Shown piece by piece: positions 51,958-64,000 of a stretch of 64,000 nucleotides of DNA. This DNA is from Hyphomicrobiales bacterium. GTDB taxonomy: Bacteria > Pseudomonadota > Alphaproteobacteria > Rhizobiales > Beijerinckiaceae. The notes below the pieces were generated by a model, which saw only the letters and a list, made by a program, of their open reading frames with translations, ran no database searches and was not told where the DNA came from. The DNA is taken from assembly GCA_003963405.1 (NCBI GenBank), contig RXIY01000032.1, positions 1 through 64,000 of the forward strand. Reading direction: 5' to 3'. Numbering within the stretch: position 1 is the stretch's first letter; each line of letters begins with the position of its first letter. Both the position numbers and the translations under genes were made by a program.

Positions 51958-52033
51958 TCCCCGATAGCTCAGCTGGTAGAGCACGCGACTGTTAATCGCT
52001 AGGTCGTAGGTTCGAGTCCTACTCGGGGAGCCA
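51958..52033 (+). tRNA. tRNA-Asn (anticodon GTT), element insertion site
   Basis: A 76-nt cloverleaf is seen. Acceptor TCCCCGA pairs with TCGGGGA, followed by G and CCA. The anticodon loop CTGTTAA gives GTT, and the T arm is CGTAGGTTCGAGTCCTACT. An integrase gene begins 6 bases downstream on the other strand, so the 3' part of this tRNA is the probable attachment site. No second copy of the tRNA end was found in the window. Confidence 0.95.
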
Positions 52034-52039
52034 ATCTTT

Positions 52040-53158
52040 TCAGACAATTACGAGACGACCGCGCGGCGTGTAGACACTTTGCGTCGGGCGTGTAGACACT
52101 TGGCTGTTACGCCCCCTGCCCTCTCCGGTCAGATTAAGGCCCGTCACGAGCGCCTTCGCCTGATCCGGAAGCGCAGCGTTTTCGCTGTAGTGGCGCGCCA
52201 TGGCAGTCGACCGCTGGCCGAGAATGTCCGCGATTGTGCGATCGTCAGCGCCGGCTTCGCGTAGGCGCGTCCCTAGAGTGTGCCGGAGACCGTGACAGGT
52301 CAGGCCCTGCCCGATGACGCCTTCGGCCTCCAGTGACCGCCTGAGCTTGCCCCAGGAGGCGTTCCAGCCCATGGCGGTCCATGGCCCGCCGCGAGAGGAG
52401 ACGCATAGAACGTCGCTGTCGCTCGCCGGGCGCTGCGCCATGGCGTCGGCGAGGATCGGATGAATCGGAACGGCGATCGGAACGCCGCGCTTGGACGTCC
52501 TCACGACAATATGACCGTCGCGGATCGATGATAGTTTCGTGGTAAGGAAGTCGCCCTTCCGGAGACCGCTGCACATGGCGACGGCGAGCGGCAGGCGGAT
52601 ATGGGCCGGCGCGCGCTCCAGGACGATCCGGCACTCTTCCTCGGTCCAAGGGCGGTTTTTGGCGTCCGCGTCGTCACCGGACCGCCTGATCTTCTTAACA
52701 CGCTCGGCGAGCGGGTTGGCGCTCAACCAGCCGCGATCTTGCGCGAAGCGGAAGAGGATACCCAAAACGGTCACAGTGTAATTGGCGAGCCATCGTCCGT
52801 GCCTGGGCAACAGCTTCTTGTCTCGAAGAGCGAAAATGAAGCTTCGGTCCATGCGCACCAGCGGCATGTCGTGAAGCGGTTCTAAGACCAGGAAGACTTT
52901 CTCGTAGCTCGTCTTCGTCGCAGGCCGGAGAACCGCCCAGTCCGGCGAGCGCATATACTCAGCGATGACGAGCTCCAGCGAGCCCGGAATGGGCGCCGCC
53001 TTCTTCGACGCCTTCTCAATCGCCGCAAGCTCTTCGAAGAATTCAGGCGTGCCAAACTGCGAGGCGAGCCGCTTCCCGCTCTTGCGATGATAGGTGTAAA
53101 GGATGCCCGTCGTCGGGTGACGATATTGCTTAATGCCGCGAACGCGCACGATCGTCAT
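52040..53158 (-). CDS. Tyrosine recombinase / phage-type integrase
   Basis: The ATG at 53158 (MTIVRVRGIKQY) is chosen; the longer frame overlaps the upstream gene. The 372-residue product has an N-terminal Arm/core-binding region. The catalytic residues are Arg200 in CSGLRKGDF, the HGLRHT box (His289, Arg292), and the Tyr324 nucleophile in STAMARHYSENA. It integrates DNA at a tRNA site. It points toward tRNA-Asn, as integrases of tRNA-borne islands usually do. It looks intact. Confidence 0.92.
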   Translation of the reverse strand: MTIVRVRGIKQYRHPTTGILYTYHRKSGKRLASQFGTPEFFEELAAIEKASKKAAPIPGSLELVIAEYMRSPDWAVLRPATKTSYEKVFLVLEPLHDMPLVRMDRSFIFALRDKKLLPRHGRWLANYTVTVLGILFRFAQDRGWLSANPLAERVKKIRRSGDDADAKNRPWTEEECRIVLERAPAHIRLPLAVAMCSGLRKGDFLTTKLSSIRDGHIVVRTSKRGVPIAVPIHPILADAMAQRPASDSDVLCVSSRGGPWTAMGWNASWGKLRRSLEAEGVIGQGLTCHGLRHTLGTRLREAGADDRTIADILGQRSTAMARHYSENAALPDQAKALVTGLNLTGEGRGRNSQVSTRPTQSVYTPRGRLVIV

Positions 53159-53390
53159 TCTCGCCAAACCTCGCCAACCAGTCTGAATCTTCGAGATTAT
53201 CGTTCTGGCCGAGTCCGTCAATCCAGCGGTCGAGAGCGCGGACGTCATAGCGCTGGAGCTTCTTCGACTGGTTGAAGGCGATAGGCGCAACAGGACAAAC
53301 AGACACGAACGTCCGCGCGCTCAGGCCGCAGTATTTTGCGGCTTGGTCGCGCGTGAGAAGTCGCGGCGTTATGGTCGAACGATCTTGCAC
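53130..53390 (-). CDS. AlpA/excisionase-like small HTH protein
   Basis: The open frame continues further upstream, but the recognisable domain starts near PRLLTRDQAAKYCGLSARTFV. That is a typical MerR/AlpA-like helix-turn-helix start, followed by KKLQRYDVRALDRWIDGL. A GTG at 53390 gives 86 residues, but it lacks a clear Shine-Dalgarno. The 3' end overlaps the integrase start by 29 bases, so the two are probably one unit. Proteins of this type act as excisionases or regulators of integrase. Confidence 0.7.
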   Translation of the reverse strand: MQDRSTITPRLLTRDQAAKYCGLSARTFVSVCPVAPIAFNQSKKLQRYDVRALDRWIDGLGQNDNLEDSDWLARFGENDDRARSRH

Positions 53391-53974
53391 GATCGATAAT
53401 AGCGGCGACGATGCAGGATCTTCGCGGCAATCGCAAAGTGCGACAATCGGTCGCACAAACCACCAACCACGCGCTTGCCTACCGGCGGCGATCGGCGATG
53501 CTCTTCGCGGAAGCATTGCGCCGCCGCTGGCCATTCCGGTGAGTCTTTGCTGATCCAGACCAGTTCCGGAAGCTTGTCGCTCACGGGCGCTTCCGCCGGC
53601 GTGTCATCTGACTGCGCTAGCGCGCAACCCTCGGCGACCTGTCCGACCTCAACCATGACGCATTGGTTGCAGCCGAACGGGCCGGAGCGCCGGTCAACGG
53701 CTTCCAACGCCGAGAGAAGGCGCTGGACAGTCCGATCGACGAAGCGCGCCAGGCGGGCGATCGTGGCGATGCTCGGCCAGCATGAGCATGTCCTGGAGTT
53801 GAGGAACTGAGCGATCGCGCCGGCGACGTGATAGGCGTTTCGAGAAAGAGCATCGTCTTCGAGGATGGCCTTCAGCCATCGCTCTTTGCTCGCCCTGTCA
53901 AGAGTTCGCCACCGCCGACAACGTAAACGTAGGCCCCGTAGATGCTCCCGAACAAGCTCGTCGAAACGGTCCTC
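53369..53974 (-). pseudogene. Winged-HTH protein gene with lost start and likely frameshifts
   Basis: A frame of 201 codons is open between TGA TGA at 53975-53980 and a stop at 53369. It encodes a convincing HTH region (WLKAILEDDALSRNAYHVAGAI ... PSIATIARLARFVDRTVQRL). The first canonical start, a TTG at 53707, lies after that domain, so annotation from a start codon misses it. Sequence resembling its N-terminal continuation (FSIPEIDE) lies in another frame just upstream. A likely C-terminal continuation (GRQARGWWFVRP) lies in a third frame near 53460. Two frameshifts, or a decayed gene, best explain this. Related proteins are replication or regulatory proteins of integrative elements. Confidence 0.55.
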
Positions 53975-54019
53975 TCATCAATCTCGGGTATGCTGAAGCT
54001 CTTTTGAAGCTCTATTTTC

Positions 54020-54460
54020 TCAGAACGATAATTCTCCTTCCGGAGGCTTTTGCGTGACGTCCTTTCGGCGCTGTTCCATATGCGCGAGATATTCGTCTTG
54101 GTCCGCCTCTGCCTCCTTCTTTTCCTGTCTCGCTTTGGCCATCGCTGCTGCTTTCTCACGGCGCCGCTTTGCATTGTGAAGGAGGTAGAACTCAGCCAGA
54201 TAGACCAGCGCGTCGTCGCCAACCTTGTCCTTGAATGTCCCCTTAGCGCCTGAGTGCATGAGGTCGAACTCGGCGCGAGCAACCGGCGAGAGCTTATCTA
54301 TCTGCGAAGACTGAGCCGGTGTGTCTGTGCGCTCGGCGAGCTGGCGCCGCAGTTCTGCGATCTCTGCTTCAAGCTCCGGTATGCGCTTCGCTTGTCGCTT
54401 CGCTTCCATCAGCCCCCTGCGATATTTCTCCTGCTTCGGAATCTTGACTGAATCGGTCAT
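54020..54460 (-). CDS. Coiled-coil protein of integrative element
   Basis: From the ATG at 54460 the product is 146 residues and very charged. The helix around residues 15-45 is rich in Arg, Glu and Lys and has heptads (IPELEAEIAELRRQLAER). Residues about 85-125 form a second helix (YLAEFYLLHNAKRRREKAAAMAKAR). No family is recognised. The start codon lies inside one copy of a 12-bp repeat (54455-54466), so the gene may be autoregulated through it. It is first in the run leading to the integrase. Confidence 0.6.
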   Translation of the reverse strand: MTDSVKIPKQEKYRRGLMEAKRQAKRIPELEAEIAELRRQLAERTDTPAQSSQIDKLSPVARAEFDLMHSGAKGTFKDKVGDDALVYLAEFYLLHNAKRRREKAAAMAKARQEKKEAEADQDEYLAHMEQRRKDVTQKPPEGELSF

Positions 54461-54647
54461 ACTACCAATCCTTTCCATTTTCGAACAGATGGTAATATTA
54501 CCAAGGTAACACTACCACGTCAAGTGAGGTAGTATGACCGGGATAGGTAGTATGACCGGCGCGGTAGTATGACCAGCTGTGGCATAGTAGTATGGCCGCA
54601 GCCGGTAGTATGACGGAGTTTCGGCGCGTCGCAGTAGTAATACTACC
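54455..54647. repeat. Iteron-like array of 12-bp repeats (GGTAGTATGACC type)
   Basis: Nine copies occur in 193 bases: 54455, 54491, 54505, 54528, 54546, 54563, 54586, 54604 and 54636. Four read GGTAGTATGACC exactly (54528, 54546, 54563, and 54455 on the minus strand). The one at 54491 is the perfect palindrome GGTAATATTACC; the others differ at 1-3 positions. A mirror GTAGTA-A-TACTAC lies at 54634-54646. Three of the direct copies are spaced 17-18 bases apart. The array covers the start of the coiled-coil gene. Binding sites for a repressor, partition or replication protein are the natural reading. Confidence 0.85.
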
Positions 54648-54748
54648 TTTACAAGTCATTGATTCTAAAGTAACAAAAAAAGTCGGCAGCGCATCTTGAA
54701 ATCGCGACCGAGTTCTGTCACGCGGGCGTGCGCGCAGGCGAATAAGGA

Positions 54749-54765
54749 ATACTACTATGTAGTAT
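54749..54765. repeat. Inverted repeat ATACTAC-TAT-GTAGTAT
   Basis: A perfect 7-bp inverted repeat with a 3-base centre. Its core resembles the neighbouring 12-bp repeats (TAGTAT), and it lies in the A+T-rich stretch after the array. Confidence 0.6.
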
Positions 54766-54858
54766 AAGTTATCTATTACTCACTACGTTCGTAATATCTA
54801 ACTATCTCTTATCTCGCTACGCTCGGTGTGTGTGTTCTTTTGGAAAAGAACCAAAACC

Positions 54859-54885
54859 GGCGGCGCTGGCCGCGCCGCCCTTTTT
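54859..54885 (+). terminator. Strong intrinsic terminator with no gene before it
   Basis: GGCGGCGC at 54859-54866 pairs perfectly with GCGCCGCC at 54872-54879 across a 5-base loop, followed by CTTTTT. A further inverted repeat, GTTCTTTT/AAAAGAAC, lies just before it (54834-54851). No open frame precedes it on the plus strand for over 200 bases, so it may end a small RNA. Confidence 0.7.
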
Positions 54886-54888
54886 CCA

Positions 54889-54907
54889 AATCCCGGTCTC
54901 CGGGATT
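54889..54907. repeat. Perfect hairpin AATCCCGG-TCT-CCGGGATT
   Basis: An 8-bp stem with a 3-base loop lies directly after the preceding terminator. It has no T tail. Together the three hairpins at 54834-54907 form a structured block in otherwise gene-free DNA. Confidence 0.6.
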
Positions 54908-55239
54908 GATTTACCCATTCCGAATGTGAATTGTCTCTGGCTTAAACTTAGGAATTTCGATATGAATTTACTCCGGCGATAAATTATCTCCGGCTTCGAA
55001 AGATTCCCTCCGGAGCACGCCGAAGGCCTCGCCTAAGCGTGAAAGCTTCGCAAACCGCCCTGGCGGCACATGGTAGACCTGGGACGCCCCGCGGCGCGCC
55101 ACAAACCAGCTAAGTCAGAGATAAATGCGCGTTTAAATGGACAGAGAAGGCCGCTGAGCGGCCCGTATATGACGGCCCGCTACCTCTGTAGCTGTCAAAG
55201 CCGAAAACTCACCAGCGGGCTTCTCTGGCGACCTTCATT

Positions 55240-55353
55240 TCAGGCAGCTTTCGCGAGCTTCCTGGAACGCCTAACAAGCTTCCGCGTCGAGAGGCGCTTT
55301 AGACGGTCGTGCAGGTCTCGGTTCTCGACTTCAAGCTGGTTGATACGAGCCTC
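55240..55353 (-). pseudogene. Short coiled-coil coding remnant
   Basis: A 37-codon frame (INQLEVENRDLHDRLKRLS... ending KLAKAA) lies between TAG and TGA with no start codon, though AGGAGG precedes it. It looks like the C-terminal end of a coiled-coil protein whose front part is gone. The rest of 54910-55440 shows no supportable gene. Confidence 0.35.
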
Positions 55354-55441
55354 CTAAATCCAGCTGACGAATATCATCAAACAGAGGCACCTTCGATATT
55401 GTTCGATCTCCCAATTCGCAGAAGCTGTTCAAGCGGATTCT

Positions 55442-55514
55442 GGTAATATTACCTCTCTGGTCATACTACCTGTGTCTCTAACTATCGGCCATACCTTGAC
55501 CAGGTCATATTACC
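55442..55514. repeat. Second cluster of the 12-bp repeat family
   Basis: Three copies lie here, 0.8 kb from the main array: the palindrome GGTAATATTACC at 55442-55453, GGTCATACTACC at 55459-55470 and GGTCATATTACC at 55503-55514. The last one overlaps the end of the tape-measure fragment. Two clusters bracketing an A+T-rich gene-free block are typical of origins, partition sites or long-range operators. Confidence 0.8.
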
Positions 55515-55697
55515 GGGCCGCATCAGGCGCCGCAGCTCGTCGGCCACGACGCCGCGCGCAACCTGCTCAATCTGTGCCGAGACCTGCTTGGCCAAATCGA
55601 CGTTTCTGTCTGGAGCGCCACCCGTCACATTGACCGCCACGGGCAAGCTGATGCTGACCGGCCCACCCTGCCCCTCTGAGAAGCTCGGCGCCGTCAT
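55482..55697 (-). pseudogene. 3' fragment of a phage tail tape-measure protein
   Basis: The 71-codon frame reads SISLPVAVNVTGGAPDRN, then VSAQIEQVARGVVADELRRLMRPGN. This is the characteristic C-terminal end of lambda-type tail length tape-measure proteins of alphaproteobacterial phages, which close with ADELRRQLRPGG-like sequence. A full protein is many hundreds of residues, so only the tail end is here, and the last nine residues are not family-like. It marks an old prophage or phage-derived recombination. Confidence 0.55.
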
Positions 55698-55799
55698 GCT
55701 CGGCGAGATAGTCCAATGGCAACAAAATTGGGAACTCGCCAACTTGATCGCGTCCAGGTCATGTGACCATAGCCGCAATGAACAATGGCGGAATTCCGT

Positions 55800-56202
55800 C
55801 ACGCTCGAGAATCTAACATTCCCCTGCTCGGCCGCGCAAAGCTCGCGGGCGACGTCGCTGTGATCCGCGCGGGTGGCGCCACGAAAATCGAGGTGAAAGA
55901 GAAGAGAAGCGCGTTGACGGCGCTCACCGCCTGCGCCGCGGCCGAGCAAAGGATCGTTCCGGCCAACGGCATCGCGCTGTTGCGGCCGTCTACGCCTCGA
56001 CCGCGGCGAGGTCGCTGACTTCGATTAGCAGACCGGCGTCGAGATCCCCGGCAAGGTCATTCAGGGACCGGCGCACATAAGATCGTTGACAATGTCGGCG
56101 GCGACGGCGCGGTCGGCAACCTGATCGTGCCCGCCGATTGCCGCCTCGACGGCCAGTCATCGACCCGACCAAGAACAAAGTCCTTCTCGGCAGCGAGCTA
56201 AC
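55800..56202 (+). pseudogene. Decayed groEL (60-kDa chaperonin) fragment
   Basis: Pieces of GroEL appear in order but in different frames. The first is [20 protein letters not shown] then IEVKEKR and [11 protein letters not shown] (55812-55980), matching [20 protein letters not shown] onward. DFD-stop-QTGVEIPGKVIQGPAH follows in a second frame (about 56018-56076). IVDNVGGDGAV comes next, back in the first frame (56082-56114), and VIDPTKNKVLLGSE ends the series in the third (56156-56197). A stop and at least three frame changes show it is dead. It covers roughly E. coli residues 365-480. No groES or rest of groEL is present. Confidence 0.8.
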
Positions 56203-56332
56203 GCCCGATAGGAAAAACAATAGATCCCTATAAGTCACACGTTCGACCAGAGTAATAATCGCTATATTTAAGCTGTGTGCATCACAGAATAAGTCACTGA
56301 TACAAGAATATAAAATGTAAGAAAGGATAATT

Positions 56333-56788
56333 ATGAATAAGCGCATCACCGCTGAAACGGTTGTCGTCCGAAAGAATCCCGCAACCCCTTACGCTGATAC
56401 TGCTCTTTGCAGGTTCCTAACCAAGCGGATCGCAGCATTGTCTGGTATCAAAAGCCAGCGGGAGATCGCTGCGGAAATTGGTTATGATCGGCCGAATATA
56501 ATCTCGATGATCAAAAACGGAGATACGAAGCTACCGCTCGACAAAGTTCCGGCGCTCGCAAAAGCGTTAGAGGTTGATCCAAAGCATTTATTCCGACTGG
56601 CGCTCGAGCAGCACCACCCCGACGTAGCTCGCGTAGCTCACGAGATTTTCGGTAACGTCGTGACTGACCATGAATTGGCGCTCGTCAAGATGTTTCGCGA
56701 AATTACTGACAATGGCGATCCAAAGCCGCAGCCTATACTGTTCGATATAATGGAGGACGCCTTCAAAAAGAAACGACGGCGTGAGTGA
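56333..56788 (+). CDS. XRE-type transcriptional regulator
   Basis: The ATG follows AAAGGATAATT, with A+T-rich DNA upstream. The 151-residue protein has a helix-turn-helix around residues 38-80 (SQREIAAEIGYDRPNIISMIKNGDTKLPLDKVPALAKAL). A C-terminal acidic helix follows and the end is basic (KKKRRRE). It looks intact between decayed neighbours, which suggests selection. It could control the element or the cas operon 1.2 kb downstream; nothing direct supports either. Confidence 0.8.
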   Translation: MNKRITAETVVVRKNPATPYADTALCRFLTKRIAALSGIKSQREIAAEIGYDRPNIISMIKNGDTKLPLDKVPALAKALEVDPKHLFRLALEQHHPDVARVAHEIFGNVVTDHELALVKMFREITDNGDPKPQPILFDIMEDAFKKKRRRE

Positions 56789-57960
56789 CGCCGTTTCAAT
56801 GGAAGGCCCCAACGGCGCCCGAAAACGATCCGCCGCTCGGGGAGATTGTAGCCACGCCAGAACTACGAAGTCCTAGGATGGGCCGAGATCCCGCAAGGGG
56901 ATGCAGCCTGTGTTCCGACATTTCCGATCCTGTGGCCCTACCACCTCCGTCGGCGCCCTCGATGGGAATGACGCCGGTTAGGCCGGTTAAGTTCACCTGA
57001 ACGTATTGGCCAAGGCGTTCATTCGTCCCTTAACAAAGCCGCCAATTAGCGATCCAAAAGGTCGTTATTGTGAATTTCCGCATCGTCCTTTTTATCTCTG
57101 TGTTAAGTTAGGTGGCGAAGGCTTGTGGTTGTCACGCCCATATCTTGAGCGAAAGCCAAGCAGAGGCACTAAATCTTGCATCAATGGCTGTTCGATGAAC
57201 CGGTGTAAACAAGATTGCTGATAAGAGATTTTCTGGGCGTTGTTAAGCGTTGGGCCCTGCCGCTTCGAATCCGAAGACGGCCCCGCCACCAAGCGGAAAT
57301 AGTCCTTTCAGAAAGAATTGTCGCGCAGCAAGGACCCACTCCGGTTCCTCCTCCGAGCTCCCGAACTAATCTACCCCTGCCGCCCCTGTTACTGTCGATG
57401 ACGGGCACCCCCCCGGAGGGCCGCTGATCAGTTATGCGCACGTCGCAGGCGCACGCTGCGACGACCATCCAATGTCAAAAATTGTTGGCGTCTTGTAAAC
57501 CCCACTCTGTTCAGGGTCTTTCCGTGTTGGCACTACAATCGGAGCGATCACGGGTTCCGTAACGCGTAAAGCCGCCAGGAACGCGCCGAAGGTCGCAGGA
57601 AGCTGCATCGCATGGAACGCCGTGCCGCTGCATGAGCTGCGTTTGGTAGCCTCTTAGCGGGTCGCATACTTTTTCGAGCGCACGGTGTCGGCATGGCTTT
57701 GGCCCGGTCTGATTGCCAATGCTCCGGCGGATAGCCCGGCGGCGGTGAGGCCGTCGTGCGCCGCGCCAATAACATATGCTGCCCCAGATACCCACACTAA
57801 CCTCAATTTCTACGATCTATCTTGAAGAAGTATCTTGAGACCCGCACGATACAAAGCGGGCGGCGGCGAAGGATCAGCTCGGCTTGAGCGTTTTAAAGTT
57901 ATGATTACGCTTCCTTCTCGTTGTTCTTGATGATGATGGCTGACATCGGGGTATACACTA
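56789..57960. other. Gene-poor stretch before cas3, probably decayed DNA
   Basis: Short frames exist on both strands (for example 56796-56996 minus and 57006-57221 plus), but none has a Shine-Dalgarno or recognisable domain. No CRISPR repeat, tRNA end or insertion-sequence inverted repeats were found by eye. The cas3 promoter should lie in its last 150 bases, which are locally A+T-rich; no clear -35/-10 pair can be named. Confidence 0.5.
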
Positions 57961-60222
57961 ATGTGGTATGCGCATTCTCTTCTGAATTCGCCTAAATCCA
58001 AATGGCAGCCGCTCGCCGAGCATCTGCTGTCGACGGCCGCTCTCGCAAGCCAGAGAGCCGAAAAGTTCGGCGCGGCGCGCGCGGCGAATCTCGCTGGATC
58101 GCTCCACGACCTCGGCAAATACACGCGAGAATTTCAAAAGCGGCTCGAGGGCGGAGCGCGCGTCGATCATGCCACCGCCGGCGCGCACGAGGCGATTTCT
58201 CTCGCTCAGCATCCAGAAGACAAGTTGGTCGCCGAAATTGTCGCTCACGCCATCGCGGGTCATCACGTAGGCCTGCCTGATAGTGTCGGCGGCGACGCCT
58301 CGCTCGGCGAGCGCGTGAAACGCAAGCTTGCGCCGCTCGATCCCGTCTGGCGTGACGAGATCGCGCCCCTGGCCGAGGGGCTGATCCCAAAATCCTTCAG
58401 GGCTGGCGCGCATAAGGACCGGCTTCCCTATCAACTCGCCTTTTTCGGCCGCATGATTTTTTCGTGCCTTGTCGACGCGGATTTTCGAGACACCGAGCGG
58501 TTTTACGATACCGCCGAGGGGCGCGAGAGCCCGCGCGACTGGGCCGGGCTGCCGTCGATCGTCGCTACACTGGTCGCGCGTTTCAATGCGCATACAACGC
58601 GAATGAGCGCGTGCTCAGTAGAATCGGAGGTGAACGCGCTGCGCACTGAAATTCTAGCGCATGTGCGTCGACAGGCGGCAGCCGAACGCGGCCTATTCAC
58701 GCTCACCGTTCCCACGGGCGGCGGGAAGACGCTGGCGTCTCTTGCTTTCGCGCTCGATCACGCCAAGCGCCACGGCCTGGAGCGAATCGTCTACGCAATT
58801 CCCTTCACATCGATCATCGACCAGACGGCGGCGATCTTCCGCGAGGTTCTGGAAGAATCCGGCGACGAATTCATTCTCGAACATCATTCATCCATCGACG
58901 AGGAAAGCATCGATGATGAGGATTGCAAACATCGACGCGAAGCTCGCAATAAGCTTAAGCTGGCCATGGAGGATTGGGCGGCCCCCATCGTCATCACCAC
59001 CAATGTTCAGCTCTTCGAGAGTCTTTATGCCAACCGGCCCTCACGCTGCCGTCGCCTGCATAATCTCGCGAATAGCGTGATTATCCTCGACGAGGCACAG
59101 ACCATCCCCTTGCACGTGCTGCGGCCCTGTCTCGCCGCACTCGACGAGCTTGCGAACAATTATGGCGCGAGCCTCGTGCTGTGCACGGCGACTCAGCCAG
59201 CGGTCACGGAGCCGCATTTTGTGGGCGGTCTCTCCCTGTCGTCTCAGCGCGAACTTGCGCCATCGCCGGTAATTCTGCACGAGAAGCTGAGGCGCGTTCG
59301 GCTCGCGCATCTCGGCGCACTAGATGACAACGCGCTCGTCGCCGAGCTTGCTGAGACTTCCCAGGGCCTGATGATCGTCAACAGTCGGGCGCATGCGCTC
59401 GCGCTTTATCGCAAGGCCAGGAACGCTGGGCTCGAAGGCGCGACGCATCTTACCACGCGCCAATATGCGGCGCACCGACGCGAGATACTGGCGGATGTGC
59501 GTAAGCGGTTGATCGGCGGCGCGCCCTGCCGTCTCATCGCGACATCGCTGGTCGAGGCCGGCGTCGACCTCGATTTTCCCCGCGTCTGGCGCGCCGAGGC
59601 GGGTCTCGATCAGATCGCCCAGGCGGCGGGCCGCTGCAATCGCGAGGGAAAACGTAGCGTCGAGGAGAGCGTGGTCGGGGTGTTCAAGTCTGCGGATTAC
59701 GCACCTCCGCGCGAAATCGCGCAGTTGGCTGGGGACATGGCACGCATCATTGGCAAGCATGTTGACCTTCTCGCCCCCGGCGCCATGCGCGACTATTTCA
59801 GCGAGGTCTATTGGCGCAAGGATAAAGCGCTCGATAAGCATAGAGTGATGGACGCCTGGGCCGTGTCCGCCGGTAGGCCGATTTTCGATTATGCGCGGAT
59901 CGGGCGGGATTTCCGTATGATCGAGAGCGGGCAGCTCCCGGTAATTGTGGGAATCGAATCGCCAGCGAAAGATGCGCTCGCGGCTTTGCGTGGCGGCAAG
60001 CCCCCGGGCGCCGTCGCGCGGGCGATTCAGCCCTATATCGTCCAGATTCCGTCCAAGGCGCGTGAGCTGCTTTTGCGCAATGGACATGTGGCGTTTGTCG
60101 AAGAATTCGGGGATCAGTTCGCGGTGTTGCGGTCCGATGGGCTTTACAAACGCGATCCCGGCGGCGAAGATTTAGGCCTGCTCTGGGAGCAAGCGGATTA
60201 CTTGGACGAGTCCATTATCTGA
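57961..60222 (+). CDS. cas3: CRISPR-associated helicase/nuclease Cas3 (type I-C)
   Basis: The 753-residue protein joins an HD nuclease and a superfamily 2 helicase. HD-domain residues include His21, His49-Asp50 with Gly-Lys following (SLHDLGKYT), His70 and the GHH at 100-102. Helicase motifs are TVPTGGGKT (249-257), IILDEAQTIP (375-383), CTAT (408-411), ATSLVEAGVDLD and QAAGRCNREGK. Cas3 is recruited by Cascade bound to target DNA and degrades it. The length suits I-C. The start ATG has only a weak GGGG 9 bases upstream. Confidence 0.96.
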   Translation: MWYAHSLLNSPKSKWQPLAEHLLSTAALASQRAEKFGAARAANLAGSLHDLGKYTREFQKRLEGGARVDHATAGAHEAISLAQHPEDKLVAEIVAHAIAGHHVGLPDSVGGDASLGERVKRKLAPLDPVWRDEIAPLAEGLIPKSFRAGAHKDRLPYQLAFFGRMIFSCLVDADFRDTERFYDTAEGRESPRDWAGLPSIVATLVARFNAHTTRMSACSVESEVNALRTEILAHVRRQAAAERGLFTLTVPTGGGKTLASLAFALDHAKRHGLERIVYAIPFTSIIDQTAAIFREVLEESGDEFILEHHSSIDEESIDDEDCKHRREARNKLKLAMEDWAAPIVITTNVQLFESLYANRPSRCRRLHNLANSVIILDEAQTIPLHVLRPCLAALDELANNYGASLVLCTATQPAVTEPHFVGGLSLSSQRELAPSPVILHEKLRRVRLAHLGALDDNALVAELAETSQGLMIVNSRAHALALYRKARNAGLEGATHLTTRQYAAHRREILADVRKRLIGGAPCRLIATSLVEAGVDLDFPRVWRAEAGLDQIAQAAGRCNREGKRSVEESVVGVFKSADYAPPREIAQLAGDMARIIGKHVDLLAPGAMRDYFSEVYWRKDKALDKHRVMDAWAVSAGRPIFDYARIGRDFRMIESGQLPVIVGIESPAKDALAALRGGKPPGAVARAIQPYIVQIPSKARELLLRNGHVAFVEEFGDQFAVLRSDGLYKRDPGGEDLGLLWEQADYLDESII

Positions 60223-60268
60223 GAGAGCGCGAGTGAAAAAACCATTTAACATATAAGGAGGACAATGC

Positions 60269-60934
60269 TTGTCCTACGGTGTTCGCCTACGTATTGCCGG
60301 CGACTATGCCTGCTTCACCCGCCCCGAAATGAAGGTTGAGCGGGTCTCGTATGACGTGATGACCCCCTCGGCCGCCCGCGGCGTTCTCGAGGCCATCCAC
60401 TGGAAGCCGGCGATTCAGTGGGTCGTCACCGCGATCCATGTCTTGAAGCCGATCCGATTTCAATCGATCCGTCGCAACGAGGTCGGCCACAAGGCGCCCG
60501 TCGCCGCCATTCGTAAGGCGATGAAATCCGGCAACCTCCAAGATCTCGCCCTGATCGTCGAAGACGACCGCCAACAGCGCGCCGCGACTGTGCTACGCGA
60601 CGTCGATTATATGATCGACGCCCGTTTCGAACTTACCGACAAGGCCGGGCCGGACGACAATGAAGGCAAGCATCTCGATATTTTCAACCGTCGAGCCCGC
60701 AAGGGACAATGTTTTCATCAGCCCTCCCTCGGCGCACGTGAATTTCCGGCGCGCTTCTCGCTGATCGAGCCAGCCGAGGAACCGCCCTCGCCAATAGAAG
60801 AAACGCGCGACCTCGGCTTCATTCTGTGGGACCTCGACCATGGCGGCGATCGAGGCTCAATGTTTTTTCGCGCCCGGCTCGATAAAGGGGTCATGCATGT
60901 GCCGCCGCCCGGCAGCCGGGAGATTCTAAGGTGA
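60269..60934 (+). CDS. cas5c: Type I-C Cas5 (crRNA-processing Cascade subunit)
   Basis: A TTG at 60269, 7 bases after a strong AAGGAGG (60255-60261), fixes the start; an ATG at 60265 is in another frame. The 221-residue protein begins with SYGVRLRIAGDYACFTRPEMKVERVSYDVMTPSAARGVLEAI, diagnostic of Cas5d/Cas5c. Later it has FHQPSLGAREFPARF and closes with PGSREILR. In type I-C, which lacks Cas6, Cas5 cuts pre-crRNA in its repeat hairpin and holds the 5' handle. The stop overlaps cas8c by four bases. Confidence 0.95.
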   Translation: MSYGVRLRIAGDYACFTRPEMKVERVSYDVMTPSAARGVLEAIHWKPAIQWVVTAIHVLKPIRFQSIRRNEVGHKAPVAAIRKAMKSGNLQDLALIVEDDRQQRAATVLRDVDYMIDARFELTDKAGPDDNEGKHLDIFNRRARKGQCFHQPSLGAREFPARFSLIEPAEEPPSPIEETRDLGFILWDLDHGGDRGSMFFRARLDKGVMHVPPPGSREILR

Positions 60935-62658
60935 GCGTGCTTGCCTCTCTTGTCCGTGCCTATGAGCGTATGAAAGACGCGCCGCCTTTCGGCTATTCGG
61001 CCGAGAAGATCGGCTTTCTGATTTCGTTGATGGAAGACGGAACCATCGCCAACGTCACCGATCTGCGCGAGGGCGAAGGGAAGAGGAAGGTGCCGAAAAT
61101 TCTATTCGTGCCACAGCCAGTGACGCGCACCTCAAACGCTGCAGCGAATTTCCTGTGGGACAACTCCTCCTACGTTCTCGGAGTCACCGCCCGCGAGGGT
61201 ATGCAAATTTCGCAGAAGCATTCATGCTTCGTCAGATTTCATCTGGATGCCTTGAAAGGCGAACCGGACGCCGGCCTATCCGCCTTGCGCTTGTTTTTGG
61301 AACGCTGGTCACCCGACAAATTCGACAGTCTCAATGCGCCGGAAATGATGGACCAGAATATCGTGTTCACGCTCGAAAGCGACAGGCTGGCCCATATCTG
61401 CATCCATGATAGGCCTGCGGCGCGCGTCCTATGGGCACGCCTTGGCGCTACAAGCGATCAGCCCACAAGCGCGTGTCTTGTCACCGGGGAACACGCGCGC
61501 GTAGCCCGCCTACATCCGGCCATCAAGGGCGTGTGGGGCGCACAACCATCCGGCGCCAGGCTCGTTTCCTTTAATCTTGACGCCTTCAACTCTTATGGCC
61601 ACGAGCAGGGCGACAACGCACCCGTGAGCGAGGCCGCTACTTTCGCTTATACGACAGCGCTTAATCGTCTTCTCGAAAGAGACAGTGGGCATCGCATCCA
61701 AATCGGCGATGCCTCGACTGTGTTTTGGGCGGACGCTTCCAGCGTGCGCGCGTCGGAGGCCGAGGGGCTCTTCGCGGCGCTCCTGGGGGCTGTCGATGAG
61801 ACGGCGGAAGCTAGGAAAATTACCGCAATTTTGGACGCGTTGCGACAAGGCCGGTCGATTGACACATTGACCCCAGACCTCCCGCAGAACGTGCGCTTTT
61901 TCGTGCTGGGTCTCTCACCCAACGTCGCGCGGCTTTCTGCGCGTTTCTACATCGAAAGCGATTTCGATGAGATTGCAACGCGCTACCTTCAGCACGTCGA
62001 GCGCATACGCATCGAGCCGCCGCCGAGAGAAGCGGCGCCGTCCCTGTGGCGAATGCTGATCGAAACCGCCTCCCAACGAAAGAGCGAGAATATTTCGCCG
62101 CTTCTTGCTGGCGAGTGGCTTCGCGCCATTCTCACCGGCGCGCCTTATCCGCTCACATTGCTGGCGACCATACTGATGCGTCTGCGCGCCGATCACGACG
62201 TGAACGCCCTGCGTGTTGCAATGCTCAAATCCGTTCTTGTCCGCAATTTTCGATTGGAGGCTCCCGTGGCGCTTGATCCCGAAAACGACGATCCCGGCTA
62301 TTTACTCGGGCGCTTGTTCGCCACATACGAATATGCTCAAACACAGGCGCTCGGCGGCAATGTCAATGCGACGATCCGGGATCAATATTACGGCACGGCT
62401 TCCGCCACTCCGCGCTCTGTGTTTCCGATCCTACAGCGAAAAGCCACGCATCACCTTTCCAAGCTTCGGAAGGGAAAGCCTGGCCTTGCCGTTAGTTTAG
62501 ATCGAAAAATTGGCGAGATTTGTGAACTAGCGCGCGCTGATTCGCTCTTCCCACCGACGCTCAATCCACGCCGTCAGGCGCTGTTCGCCGTCGGTTATTA
62601 TCACCAGCGCAATGATTTCTACCGGGCGCGCGAGGGCACCCAAAAGATCGAGGAGTAA
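60931..62658 (+). CDS. cas8c: Type I-C Cascade large subunit Cas8c (Csd1)
   Basis: The GTG start overlaps the cas5 stop (GTGA). The 575-residue protein starts LASLVRAYERMKDAPPFGYSAEKIGFLISL, the usual Csd1 opening. Later it has FLWDNSSYVLGV, LVSFNLDAFNSYGHEQGDNAPVSE, TVFWAD and YLLGRLFATYEYAQ. Cas8c recognises the PAM and the target. In I-C an internal start within cas8c also yields the small subunit Cas11c. No separate cas11 is annotated here, so the internal route is expected in the last third. Confidence 0.95.
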   Translation: MSVLASLVRAYERMKDAPPFGYSAEKIGFLISLMEDGTIANVTDLREGEGKRKVPKILFVPQPVTRTSNAAANFLWDNSSYVLGVTAREGMQISQKHSCFVRFHLDALKGEPDAGLSALRLFLERWSPDKFDSLNAPEMMDQNIVFTLESDRLAHICIHDRPAARVLWARLGATSDQPTSACLVTGEHARVARLHPAIKGVWGAQPSGARLVSFNLDAFNSYGHEQGDNAPVSEAATFAYTTALNRLLERDSGHRIQIGDASTVFWADASSVRASEAEGLFAALLGAVDETAEARKITAILDALRQGRSIDTLTPDLPQNVRFFVLGLSPNVARLSARFYIESDFDEIATRYLQHVERIRIEPPPREAAPSLWRMLIETASQRKSENISPLLAGEWLRAILTGAPYPLTLLATILMRLRADHDVNALRVAMLKSVLVRNFRLEAPVALDPENDDPGYLLGRLFATYEYAQTQALGGNVNATIRDQYYGTASATPRSVFPILQRKATHHLSKLRKGKPGLAVSLDRKIGEICELARADSLFPPTLNPRRQALFAVGYYHQRNDFYRAREGTQKIEE

Positions 62659-62664
62659 GATTTT

Positions 62665-63615
62665 ATGACCGCGCTTGCCCACCGTTTCGATTTCATCTTT
62701 CTCTTCGACGTCACTAATGGCAACCCCAACGGCGATCCCGACGCGGGCAATCTCCCGAGACTCGATCCAGAAACCAATCAAGGGCTCGTCACCGACGTTT
62801 GCCTCAAGCGCAAAATCCGCAACTACGTCGAGATTGCGAAGGGGGGTGAGACCGGCTTTGCGATTTACGTGCAGGAAGGCGCCATTCTCAACGAAAAGCA
62901 CCGCGAAGCTTACAAGGCCGTCCGGTCGAACGACGTCAAGGTAGAGGAAGATAAGAAGCTTAACCCGCAAAATGACGAAGAAGCCAAGGCGCTGCAGCGA
63001 TTCATGTGCGGCAACTTCTTTGACGTTCGCACTTTCGGTGCCGTCATGAGCACGGGCGTCAATTGTGGGCAAGTGCGCGGGCCCGTGCAGTTTTCCTTTG
63101 CGCGGTCGGTCGAAGCGATCCTGCCGCTCGAAATCTCCATTACCCGCATGGCGGCGACCAACGAAGCGGAAAAGAAAAAACGCGACGAAGGCGCCGACGA
63201 CGAGCGAGTCGAAAATCGCACTATGGGCCGCAAACACATCGTCCCCTACGGCCTTTATCGCGCCCATGGCTTCGTTTCCGCAGGCCTCGCCGCGCGCACG
63301 GGCTTCTCCGAGGACGACGTGGCCTTTTTGTGGGAAGCGCTGAAAAACATGTTCGAGCACGACCGCTCCGCCGCGCGCGGCGAAATGGCCGCTCGCAAAT
63401 TGATCGTCTTCGAACACGACAACGCCCTTGGCCGTGCCCCGGCGCACAATTTGTTCGAAAGGGTGACGATCGAGCGCATTAACGACGGCGTCGCCTACGC
63501 CATCGGCGACAAACGCCTAGACAATGCGCCGCCCGGGCGCCGCTTCTCCGATTACGCCGTTACGGTGAATCGCGACGCGCTGCCGGAAGGGGTCACGCTC
63601 CACGAGCTACTGTAG
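62665..63615 (+). CDS. cas7c: Type I-C Cascade backbone subunit Cas7c (Csd2)
   Basis: The 316-residue protein starts 6 bases after cas8c. It opens with HRFDFIFLFDVTNGNPNGDPDAGNLPRLDPETNQGLVTDVCLKRKIRNYV, the hallmark of Csd2, here cited by its position 5-53 and the core NGNPNGDPD. The sequence FGAVMSTGVNCGQVRGPVQF and MGRKHIVPYGLYRAHGFVS follow. Six or seven copies coat the crRNA in Cascade. It is uninterrupted. Confidence 0.95.
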   Translation: MTALAHRFDFIFLFDVTNGNPNGDPDAGNLPRLDPETNQGLVTDVCLKRKIRNYVEIAKGGETGFAIYVQEGAILNEKHREAYKAVRSNDVKVEEDKKLNPQNDEEAKALQRFMCGNFFDVRTFGAVMSTGVNCGQVRGPVQFSFARSVEAILPLEISITRMAATNEAEKKKRDEGADDERVENRTMGRKHIVPYGLYRAHGFVSAGLAARTGFSEDDVAFLWEALKNMFEHDRSAARGEMAARKLIVFEHDNALGRAPAHNLFERVTIERINDGVAYAIGDKRLDNAPPGRRFSDYAVTVNRDALPEGVTLHELL

Positions 63616-63623
63616 GCGAGGCG

Positions 63624-64000
63624 ATGGACGACCCCTTCCCGCTCTCCGCCCTACAGCACGCTGTCTATTGCATGCGCCAGGCCGCGCTCATCCATGTCGA
63701 GCGGCTGTGGGAGGAGAACCGTCTCACCGCCGAGGGGCGCGTTCTGCATGCCGGAGTCGATCGACAGAGCGAGCGCTATTCGCGCGGCGCGCGCCGCGTG
63801 GCGGCCATTCCGCTCGCCTGTCGGCGTCTGGGGATCGCCGGCATCGCCGACGTGGTCGAATTCCACAAAGGCGCGGAGGGCGAAACGCCCTATCCGATCG
63901 AATATAAGCGCGGCAAGCCAAAACCGCATCGCGCGGACGAGGCGCAGCTTTGTGCGCAGGCGCTCTGTCTCGAGGAGATGACCGGTCGGATCGTGCCGGA
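63624..64000 (+). CDS. cas4: CRISPR-associated Cas4 exonuclease (3' truncated by window)
   Basis: The ATG at 63624 lies 8 bases after cas7. The 125 visible residues have the first iron-sulfur cysteine in AVYCMRQAALIHVERLWEEN (Cys16), the EGRVLHAGVD motif with His42, Asp76 and the PD-(D/E)xK part YPIEYKRGKPK (Glu93, Lys95) with Gln108 after it. The other three cysteines would be in the missing C-terminus. Cas4 trims prespacers and sets PAM orientation with Cas1-Cas2. Confidence 0.93.
   Translation, partial: MDDPFPLSALQHAVYCMRQAALIHVERLWEENRLTAEGRVLHAGVDRQSERYSRGARRVAAIPLACRRLGIAGIADVVEFHKGAEGETPYPIEYKRGKPKPHRADEAQLCAQALCLEEMTGRIVP

Follow-up and report, generated by a model that had tools for sequence, protein, structure and literature searches.

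We analysed the first 64,000 nucleotides (the window) of contig RXIY01000032.1, here called C53, from the Hyphomicrobiales bacterium assembly GCA_003963405.1, in which a family of 12-bp sites resembling GGTAGTATGACC occupies 12 places in two clusters (54455–54647 and 55442–55514) at the left end of a genomic island inserted in a tRNA-Asn gene. The array is authentic and specific to this locus, and it belongs to a known kind of system with a new repeat word. The sequence GGTAGTATGACC itself accounts for five copies and the perfect palindrome GGTAATATTACC for two, one in either cluster (54491 and 55442). The direct copies start at 54528, 54546, 54563, 54586 and 54604, giving start-to-start spacings of 18, 17, 23 and 18 bases; in the right cluster, 55442 to 55459 is again a step of 17 bases. 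The copy at 54455–54466 covers the ATG (54458–54460) of the gene for P0001, a coiled-coil protein of 146 residues. A first-pass annotation, made from the letters alone, had claimed at least twelve copies in two clusters, a perfect palindrome in both, direct copies spaced by 17–18 bases and a copy over the start codon of the coiled-coil gene; all of these hold, with one additional spacing of 23. The sites are the following:

54455–54466, minus strand: site GGTAGTATGACC over the P0001 start codon (pattern match)
54491–54502, no strand assigned: palindromic site GGTAATATTACC, containing a –10-like hexamer (pattern match)
54505–54516, minus strand: site GGTAGTGTTACC between promoter-like hexamers (pattern match)
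54528–54539, plus strand: direct copy 1, GGTAGTATGACC
54546–54557, plus strand: direct copy 2, GGTAGTATGACC
54563–54574, plus strand: direct copy 3, GGTAGTATGACC
54586–54597, plus strand: direct copy 4, AGTAGTATGGCC
54604–54615, plus strand: direct copy 5, GGTAGTATGACG
54636–54647, minus strand: site GGTAGTATTACT
55442–55453, no strand assigned: palindromic site GGTAATATTACC of the right cluster
55459–55470, minus strand: site GGTAGTATGACC of the right cluster
55503–55514, minus strand: site GGTAATATGACC of the right cluster, within the end of a tail/endolysin-like fragment

With up to two mismatches allowed, GGTAGTATGACC yields 14 strand-matches at 12 places in the window, all of them within the two clusters, as compared to a mean of 0.65 strand-matches in shuffled sequence; none of 100 shuffles reached 14. 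The palindrome GGTAATATTACC, with up to three mismatches, yields 20 matches (shuffle mean 3.57; 20 reached in 0 of 100 shuffles), 11 of which lie in 54455–55514 and nine elsewhere in the window. Looser copies were sought in the window and the neighbouring 40 kb, and the exact word GGTARTATKACC in the whole genome (4,641,232 bases in 122 contigs): it occurs at eight places, all in the array, rather than being equally common elsewhere in the genome. When the 12 copies are aligned in register, they agree over exactly 12 positions, with at most 0.72 bits per position outside these. This sharp limit of conservation argues against a decayed longer tandem repeat; the copies look like individually kept candidate binding sites.

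The array is located 2.4 kb into the island, beside its integrase genes. The left boundary is marked by two features:

51958–52033, plus strand: tRNA-Asn (gtt), the integration target
51981–52033, plus strand: 53-bp direct repeat, left end (attL), with its second copy at C53:90409–90461, outside the window

The 53-bp repeat is the last 53 bp of the tRNA-Asn gene. In another genome of the same species (G497), the counterpart of C53:50897–52033 (99.6% identity) runs straight into that of C53:90409–98413 (98.7%), and this stretch carries a single 53-bp copy, that is, an empty site; taken together with the two copies in the host, it gives the island a length of 38.4 kb. The tRNA-Asn gene, the direct repeat and the same-species empty site thus substantiate the proposal that the array sits within an integrated element. 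An attachment site together with an integrase, by which phage-inducible chromosomal islands (PICIs) are recognised, is present.

Leftward from the array, four frames follow one another on the minus strand:

54020–54460, minus strand: P0001, the 146-residue coiled-coil protein, first gene after the array (only weak family matches)
53372–53974, minus strand: P0004, taken as a decayed remnant of a phage O-like/HTH_36 initiator (matched part 53699–53878)
53130–53534, minus strand: small open reading frame (ORF) with a weak excisionase/MerR-like match (phrog_66, E 0.0035; no Pfam match)
52040–53290, minus strand: tyrosine integrase of the island (PF00589, E 7e-17; phrog_1, E 4e-35)

P0004 matches phrog_270 (phage replication initiation) at E 3.7e-8, the O-like phrog_391 at E 7e-4 and HTH_36 (PF13730) at E 3.3e-4, the last scoring 20.9 bits where the curated cut-off is 25. 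The HTH_36 domain alone does not fix the subtype, since a RepC protein matches it weakly too. The first ATG, GTG or TTG of the P0004 frame comes only at 53707, and the frame is taken to be broken. We detected no relatives of P0004 in phages, plasmids or viral contigs, and one in the genome G146 at E 4e-8. No primase was matched among the proteins scanned around the array, where the O-like remnant is the only replication-type candidate. Pieces similar to the remnants at the left end of the island recur, in another order, in G503:C15 beside a decayed P0001 relative; judging by the remnants and this recurrence, the left end looks like a worn phage-like module. That fragment in G503 is the one P0001 relative among the 38 other genomes of the genus; further off there are weak matches at E 7e-4 in G010 and G676, and at the search sensitivity used none were found in plasmids, viral contigs or GTDB contigs. 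A structure predicted for P0001 from its single sequence consists of long helices throughout, at low confidence (predicted template modelling score, pTM, 0.31).

The DNA around and beyond the left cluster carries the following further features:

54495–54523, minus strand: promoter-like TTGACG-17-TAATAT before P0001 (consensus match only)
54648–54830, no strand assigned: A+T-rich stretch adjoining the direct copies, with an inverted half-motif pair (54749, 54759)
54740–54892, plus strand: run of hairpins with a terminator-like stem at 54859–54879 (fold z –4.7)
55488–55679, minus strand: C-terminal end of a phage tail/endolysin-type protein (phrog_1768, E 4e-16)
56333–56788, plus strand: P0002, XRE-type regulator (HTH_19 and HTH_3, both below their cut-offs)

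The candidate promoter reads from 54523 to 54495, its –10 hexamer falls within the palindrome at 54491–54502, the site at 54505–54516 occupies its spacer, and a third site covers the start codon of P0001. Moving away from this putative promoter, one meets the five direct copies, one inverted copy and then the stretch 54648–54830, with 42.6% G+C as compared to 58.6% for 52034–64000 and 66.9% for 1–51950. Two features of an iteron replicon, five direct copies (54528–54615) and adjoining A+T-rich DNA (54648–54830), are present. The right cluster, with three copies, follows 800 bp beyond this left-hand layout. The annotation had the two clusters bracketing an A+T-rich, gene-free block: the 54648–54830 stretch is clearly A+T-rich, but the interval as a whole has 51% G+C, and of the three right-hand sites two fall just past the end of the tail/endolysin-like fragment and one inside that end.

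The hairpin run folds far better than shuffled sequence (0 of 200 shuffles as stable), matches no Rfam family at its cut-off, and is possibly a small RNA or part of an origin. Sequence similar to 54380–55560 was found neither in plasmids nor in phages; 54640–55440 has matches, 25–42 bp long, in eight other genomes, of which we inspected L105 and L110, several others falling on the terminator hairpin, and found no meaning in them.

Does the word occur elsewhere? The motif pair is found in one of 39 genomes of the genus, the host, and a narrower form of the pair in one of 289 genomes of the class, again only the host. In GTDB contigs, 18 stretches match the pattern: two from Methylovirgula, explained by an S24 repressor (see below), 12 of Bacteroidetes type and four from other phyla. 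Eight stretches match in viral contigs. Two of the similar stretches may be mentioned in passing: an Ignavibacteriae contig carries the exact GGTAGTATGACC twice, as an inverted pair between two ORFs (L029:1634–1664), probably by chance, and L016 has a run of words similar to the motif. A search of the open-access literature for three of the 12-mers (subscription papers being mostly outside it) returned one match, in a Trypanosoma brucei paper that is unrelated by its title.

To place the array among comparable elements, we defined related integrases by E 1e-40 or better, which 19 of 199 family genomes possess, the host included, and compared 17 loci: 14 of the 18 other integrase loci, plus G503, G017 and G487 at the same tRNA-Asn. 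A tRNA gene is present in 10 of the 14 integrase-locus stretches, several of the 14 ending at contig ends. In G503 and G017 a second copy of the 53-bp repeat marks islands of 17.3 and 14.8 kb, and G487 has only one copy within 8 mismatches. The islands of G503 (L130) and G017 (L131) are different ones, with integrases of their own, inserted in the same tRNA-Asn of other genomes of the genus.

Arrays of other words occur in or beside replication genes in the 17 loci, two of them firm and two weak. At L097, AGGTGGGACA (GGTGGGACA/TGTCCCACC) is repeated ten times in about 230 bp, ending no more than 4 bp from the 3' end of a DUF5906 primase gene; in the G017 island, an AAA_25 gene has five copies of ATAGGTGGCC at its end, spread over about 115 bp. 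The weak cases are GGGTGACA, six copies inside an HTH_36 gene at L102, and GGGGGGTGTG, four copies inside a G503 gene that encodes 404 residues, belongs to no family and has a helicase as its neighbour, again at the same tRNA-Asn; GGGGGGTGTG consists of two letters only, was dropped by the complexity filter and kept by eye, and for both weak arrays the case is one of density and position, as assessed by eye. In G146, the HTH_36 relative contains three copies of ACACGTCTGTC inside its gene. Compared with all these related arrays, the one in the window is alone in being upstream of its replication-type frame. Three further loci reached the copy count and were set aside as not iteron-like by eye: L098, with a 30-bp tandem repeat, and L101 and L103, with dispersed 10-mers. 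As a control, 104 kb of the host contig was scanned: 10-mers in at least five copies within 1.2 kb are limited to the array and the CRISPR, and relaxing this to at least four copies in 1.5 kb adds two G+C-rich words in the 104 kb, with one such word in three of eight other loci. L097 is of some interest in itself: at 2.5–11.3 kb, beside a tRNA-Arg and an integrase, it encodes a capsid–protease fusion, the DUF5906 primase and a retron-type reverse transcriptase (PADLOC RT_II-A), a gene set that recalls a satellite-like element equipped with a defence gene.

We consider the array most likely to be an iteron-type origin-and-operator region serving a phage- or satellite-like module for replication and integration, located at the left end of the 38-kb tRNA-Asn island; we put this reading forward tentatively, with a pure operator array as its main rival. 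A protein recognising the 12-bp palindrome-like word would bind the palindromic and inverted copies at the P0001 promoter and start codon, and would thereby limit expression of the row P0001 – O-like initiator – excisionase-like ORF – integrase, which may form a single operon. The same protein, if one protein does both jobs, would be loaded on the five direct copies beside the A+T-rich stretch and open the DNA upon excision of the island, the three-copy right cluster serving as a second binding block. Two candidate binders remain: P0001 and the product of the O-like frame (or of an intact relative), and we infer that the binder is one of them. With no start codon at the beginning of the O-like frame, the origin has probably been orphaned or relies on functions supplied in trans, and the sites may now act mainly as operators. 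The suggestion of a plasmid-type origin or master operator made in the first-pass annotation thus keeps its layout, as well as the company of some related integrase loci with repeat arrays in or beside replication genes, but lacks an intact initiator.

Origins of this general kind are known from mini-F, from the PICIs and from the island SGI1. In mini-F, direct repeats lie beside A+T-rich DNA, the promoter of the next gene carries inverted copies, and a second block follows beyond repE (PMC13028717). The island shares the A+T-rich stretch, the direct repeats, the inverted copies at a candidate promoter of the following gene and the distant second block; it differs in being integrated, in having no recognisable RepE-type initiator and no good DnaA box, and in that its first gene encodes a coiled coil. 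In PICI origins, two sets of iterons flank an A+T-rich region just 3' of rep (PMC6092414). Here too one finds phage-like genes, a specific site of attachment and A+T-rich DNA between two iteron sets, whereas a primase is missing among the scanned proteins, and the element, at 38 kb, bears CRISPR-Cas and metabolic cargo. In SGI1, iterons and A+T-rich DNA adjoin rep, with the iterons 3' of the gene (PMC7433901, PMC7826253); its oriV/S004-rep operon resembles our locus in being part of an integrated island, in having a small leader gene before rep and in the position of iterons and A+T-rich DNA near xis, and is unlike it in the repeat word and in that rep is broken in our island. The phage O-like/HTH_36 initiators (L102, L134) share the Pfam domain and PHROG of P0004 and have repeats in the same replication module; in the island, P0001 separates the P0004 frame from the repeats, which are about 500 bp upstream.

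A number of observations weigh against an origin, and some of them concern these very comparisons: the second block of mini-F lies beyond repE, on the other side than here, the PICI iterons are 3' and the island array 5' of the replication-type frame, and the SGI1 iterons likewise lie downstream of rep and the array 5' of its row. Two HTH_36 relatives have repeats inside the gene, and the P0004 frame has none. The only initiator nearby is that O-like frame, which begins without a start codon and matches no family in its second half. The spacings of 17–18 and 23 bp between direct copies do not keep to one constant helical phase. The promoter is a consensus match only, one of three in 2.5 kb (two of them at the same spot), where 1.1 are expected. 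No DnaA box with fewer than two mismatches, and only two with two, is found in 54380–55560; such boxes are not universal in iteron-type origins. The related arrays are qualified as well: words in four copies occur in control DNA and are not special by number, and two of the four arrays are weak. Finally, none of the 38 other genomes of the genus that were searched has the motif pair.

The main rival would dispense with replication altogether: P0001, or another protein of the island, would act as a repressor on the promoter of its own gene and, through it, on the excision and integration genes; the upstream copies would add cooperativity, and the right cluster would be the operator of a decayed second gene. 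The placement of one site over the P0001 start codon and of two in the promoter-like region speaks for this, as does the right cluster, where the copy 55459–55470 contains an ATG followed by a broken stretch that appears coiled-coil-like by eye. With the sites included, right-cluster DNA aligns to the start of P0001 at a score of 62, against 51 for the best of 200 shuffles; excluding them lowers the score to 47, which 17–18 of 500 shuffles equal, and a decayed P0001 paralogue at the right cluster is suggestive only. On the other side, the low-confidence P0001 model displays no recognised DNA-binding fold, the decayed G503 relative of P0001 has no array, and five near-tandem direct copies beside A+T-rich DNA are more than a simple operator needs; we regard a pure operator as somewhat unlikely. 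The absence of an array in G503 also means that the expected co-travelling of the array with P0001 failed in the sole relative found. A centromere-like partition site, another of the first-pass proposals and here taken with P0001 as its adaptor, has in its favour that short repeats grouped close to a small coiled-coil gene's promoter generally resemble par loci. An integrated element has no need of partition, however, and among the proteins scanned at 52–58 kb (some ORFs there were left unscanned) there is no ParA-, ParM- or TubZ-like nucleoside triphosphatase, which makes this proposal very improbable.

Two regulators were considered as binders from outside the row. P0002 is the only apparently intact helix-turn-helix protein near the array, had been named as a possible binder, and has homologues divergent from repC on three 115–117-kb plasmids. 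Autoregulation is usual, if not universal, for such regulators, but the motif (up to three mismatches) is absent from the 180 bp before P0002 and before eight homologues, and from the repC–XRE gaps of four homologues, which also contain no 12-bp palindrome and no 8-10-mer in at least four copies except one G+C-rich 8-mer. What these upstream regions do have is AAGTCA/TGACTT, a word picked by eye from the same sequences, six times in four of the nine (0.86 expected; at most five in 1000 shuffles). That the array consists of P0002 operators is accordingly a claim we give very little credence. The AAGTCA/TGACTT word may belong to a promoter. The plasmid loci also have MoxR-ATPase and sigma-factor genes further on, and one more P0002 homologue lies beside a RepC gene in a 114-kb viral contig (plasmid and viral loci together: L011, L113, L114, L116).

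The other regulator, a CI-like S24 repressor (PF00717) of the Methylovirgula kind, would have to be supplied from elsewhere. Its gene, from the same family of bacteria, is flanked by 12-bp palindromes GGTA-N4-TACC that include GGTAATATTACC, so that these operators and the array share both the palindromes around a regulator gene and this one word (L060–L081), and 21 of 30 scanned S24 homologue loci have a site within two mismatches, with none in nine. The operators differ from the array in having 1–4 sites within two mismatches and in their variable four middle bases, whereas the window copies keep an R-TAT-K middle with few exceptions and mostly a GACC end; moreover, the host genome has no S24 repressor homologue at E 1e-10. 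We rejected this candidate on the variable operator centre and the missing gene, and consider operators for such a repressor highly doubtful. The repressor matches in 52 of 199 family genomes. The S24 gene with flanking GGTA-N4-TACC palindromes is seen in Methylovirgula and other genomes of the family (L025, L030, L060–L081), and in L025 it adjoins a ribbon-helix-helix/GcrA-like gene near a terminase gene.

Should the iteron-type origin and operator prove right, the locus would offer a compact origin-and-switch region for a mobile island with type I-C CRISPR-Cas, whose site is empty in another genome of the same species. Islands at the same tRNA-Asn or with a related integrase use quite different words (the two firm cases), and as a set they could show a change of replication specificity at a constant integration site. 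A bolder idea, which we think improbable, is that P0001 belongs to a new class of sequence-specific DNA-binding proteins without a classical helix-turn-helix, and that it would initiate or switch the island's excision and replication through the 12-bp palindrome array over its own promoter and start codon. If P0001 does bind the array, it would open up a protein family without assigned function.

The cargo of the island includes type I-C Cas genes (Cas3, Cas5, Cas8c and Cas7) and a CRISPR array of 20 repeats, whose 19 spacers do not match the repeat array. Beside the CRISPR-Cas genes lies a helicase of 1968 residues (L008:3788–9694) that matches the candidate defence families PDC-S37 and Hhe. 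The island further encodes a membrane component of an ABC transporter, a 2-hydroxyacid-dehydrogenase-type enzyme and a molybdopterin oxidoreductase; by eye, this metabolic cargo looks like molybdate transport and formate dehydrogenase.

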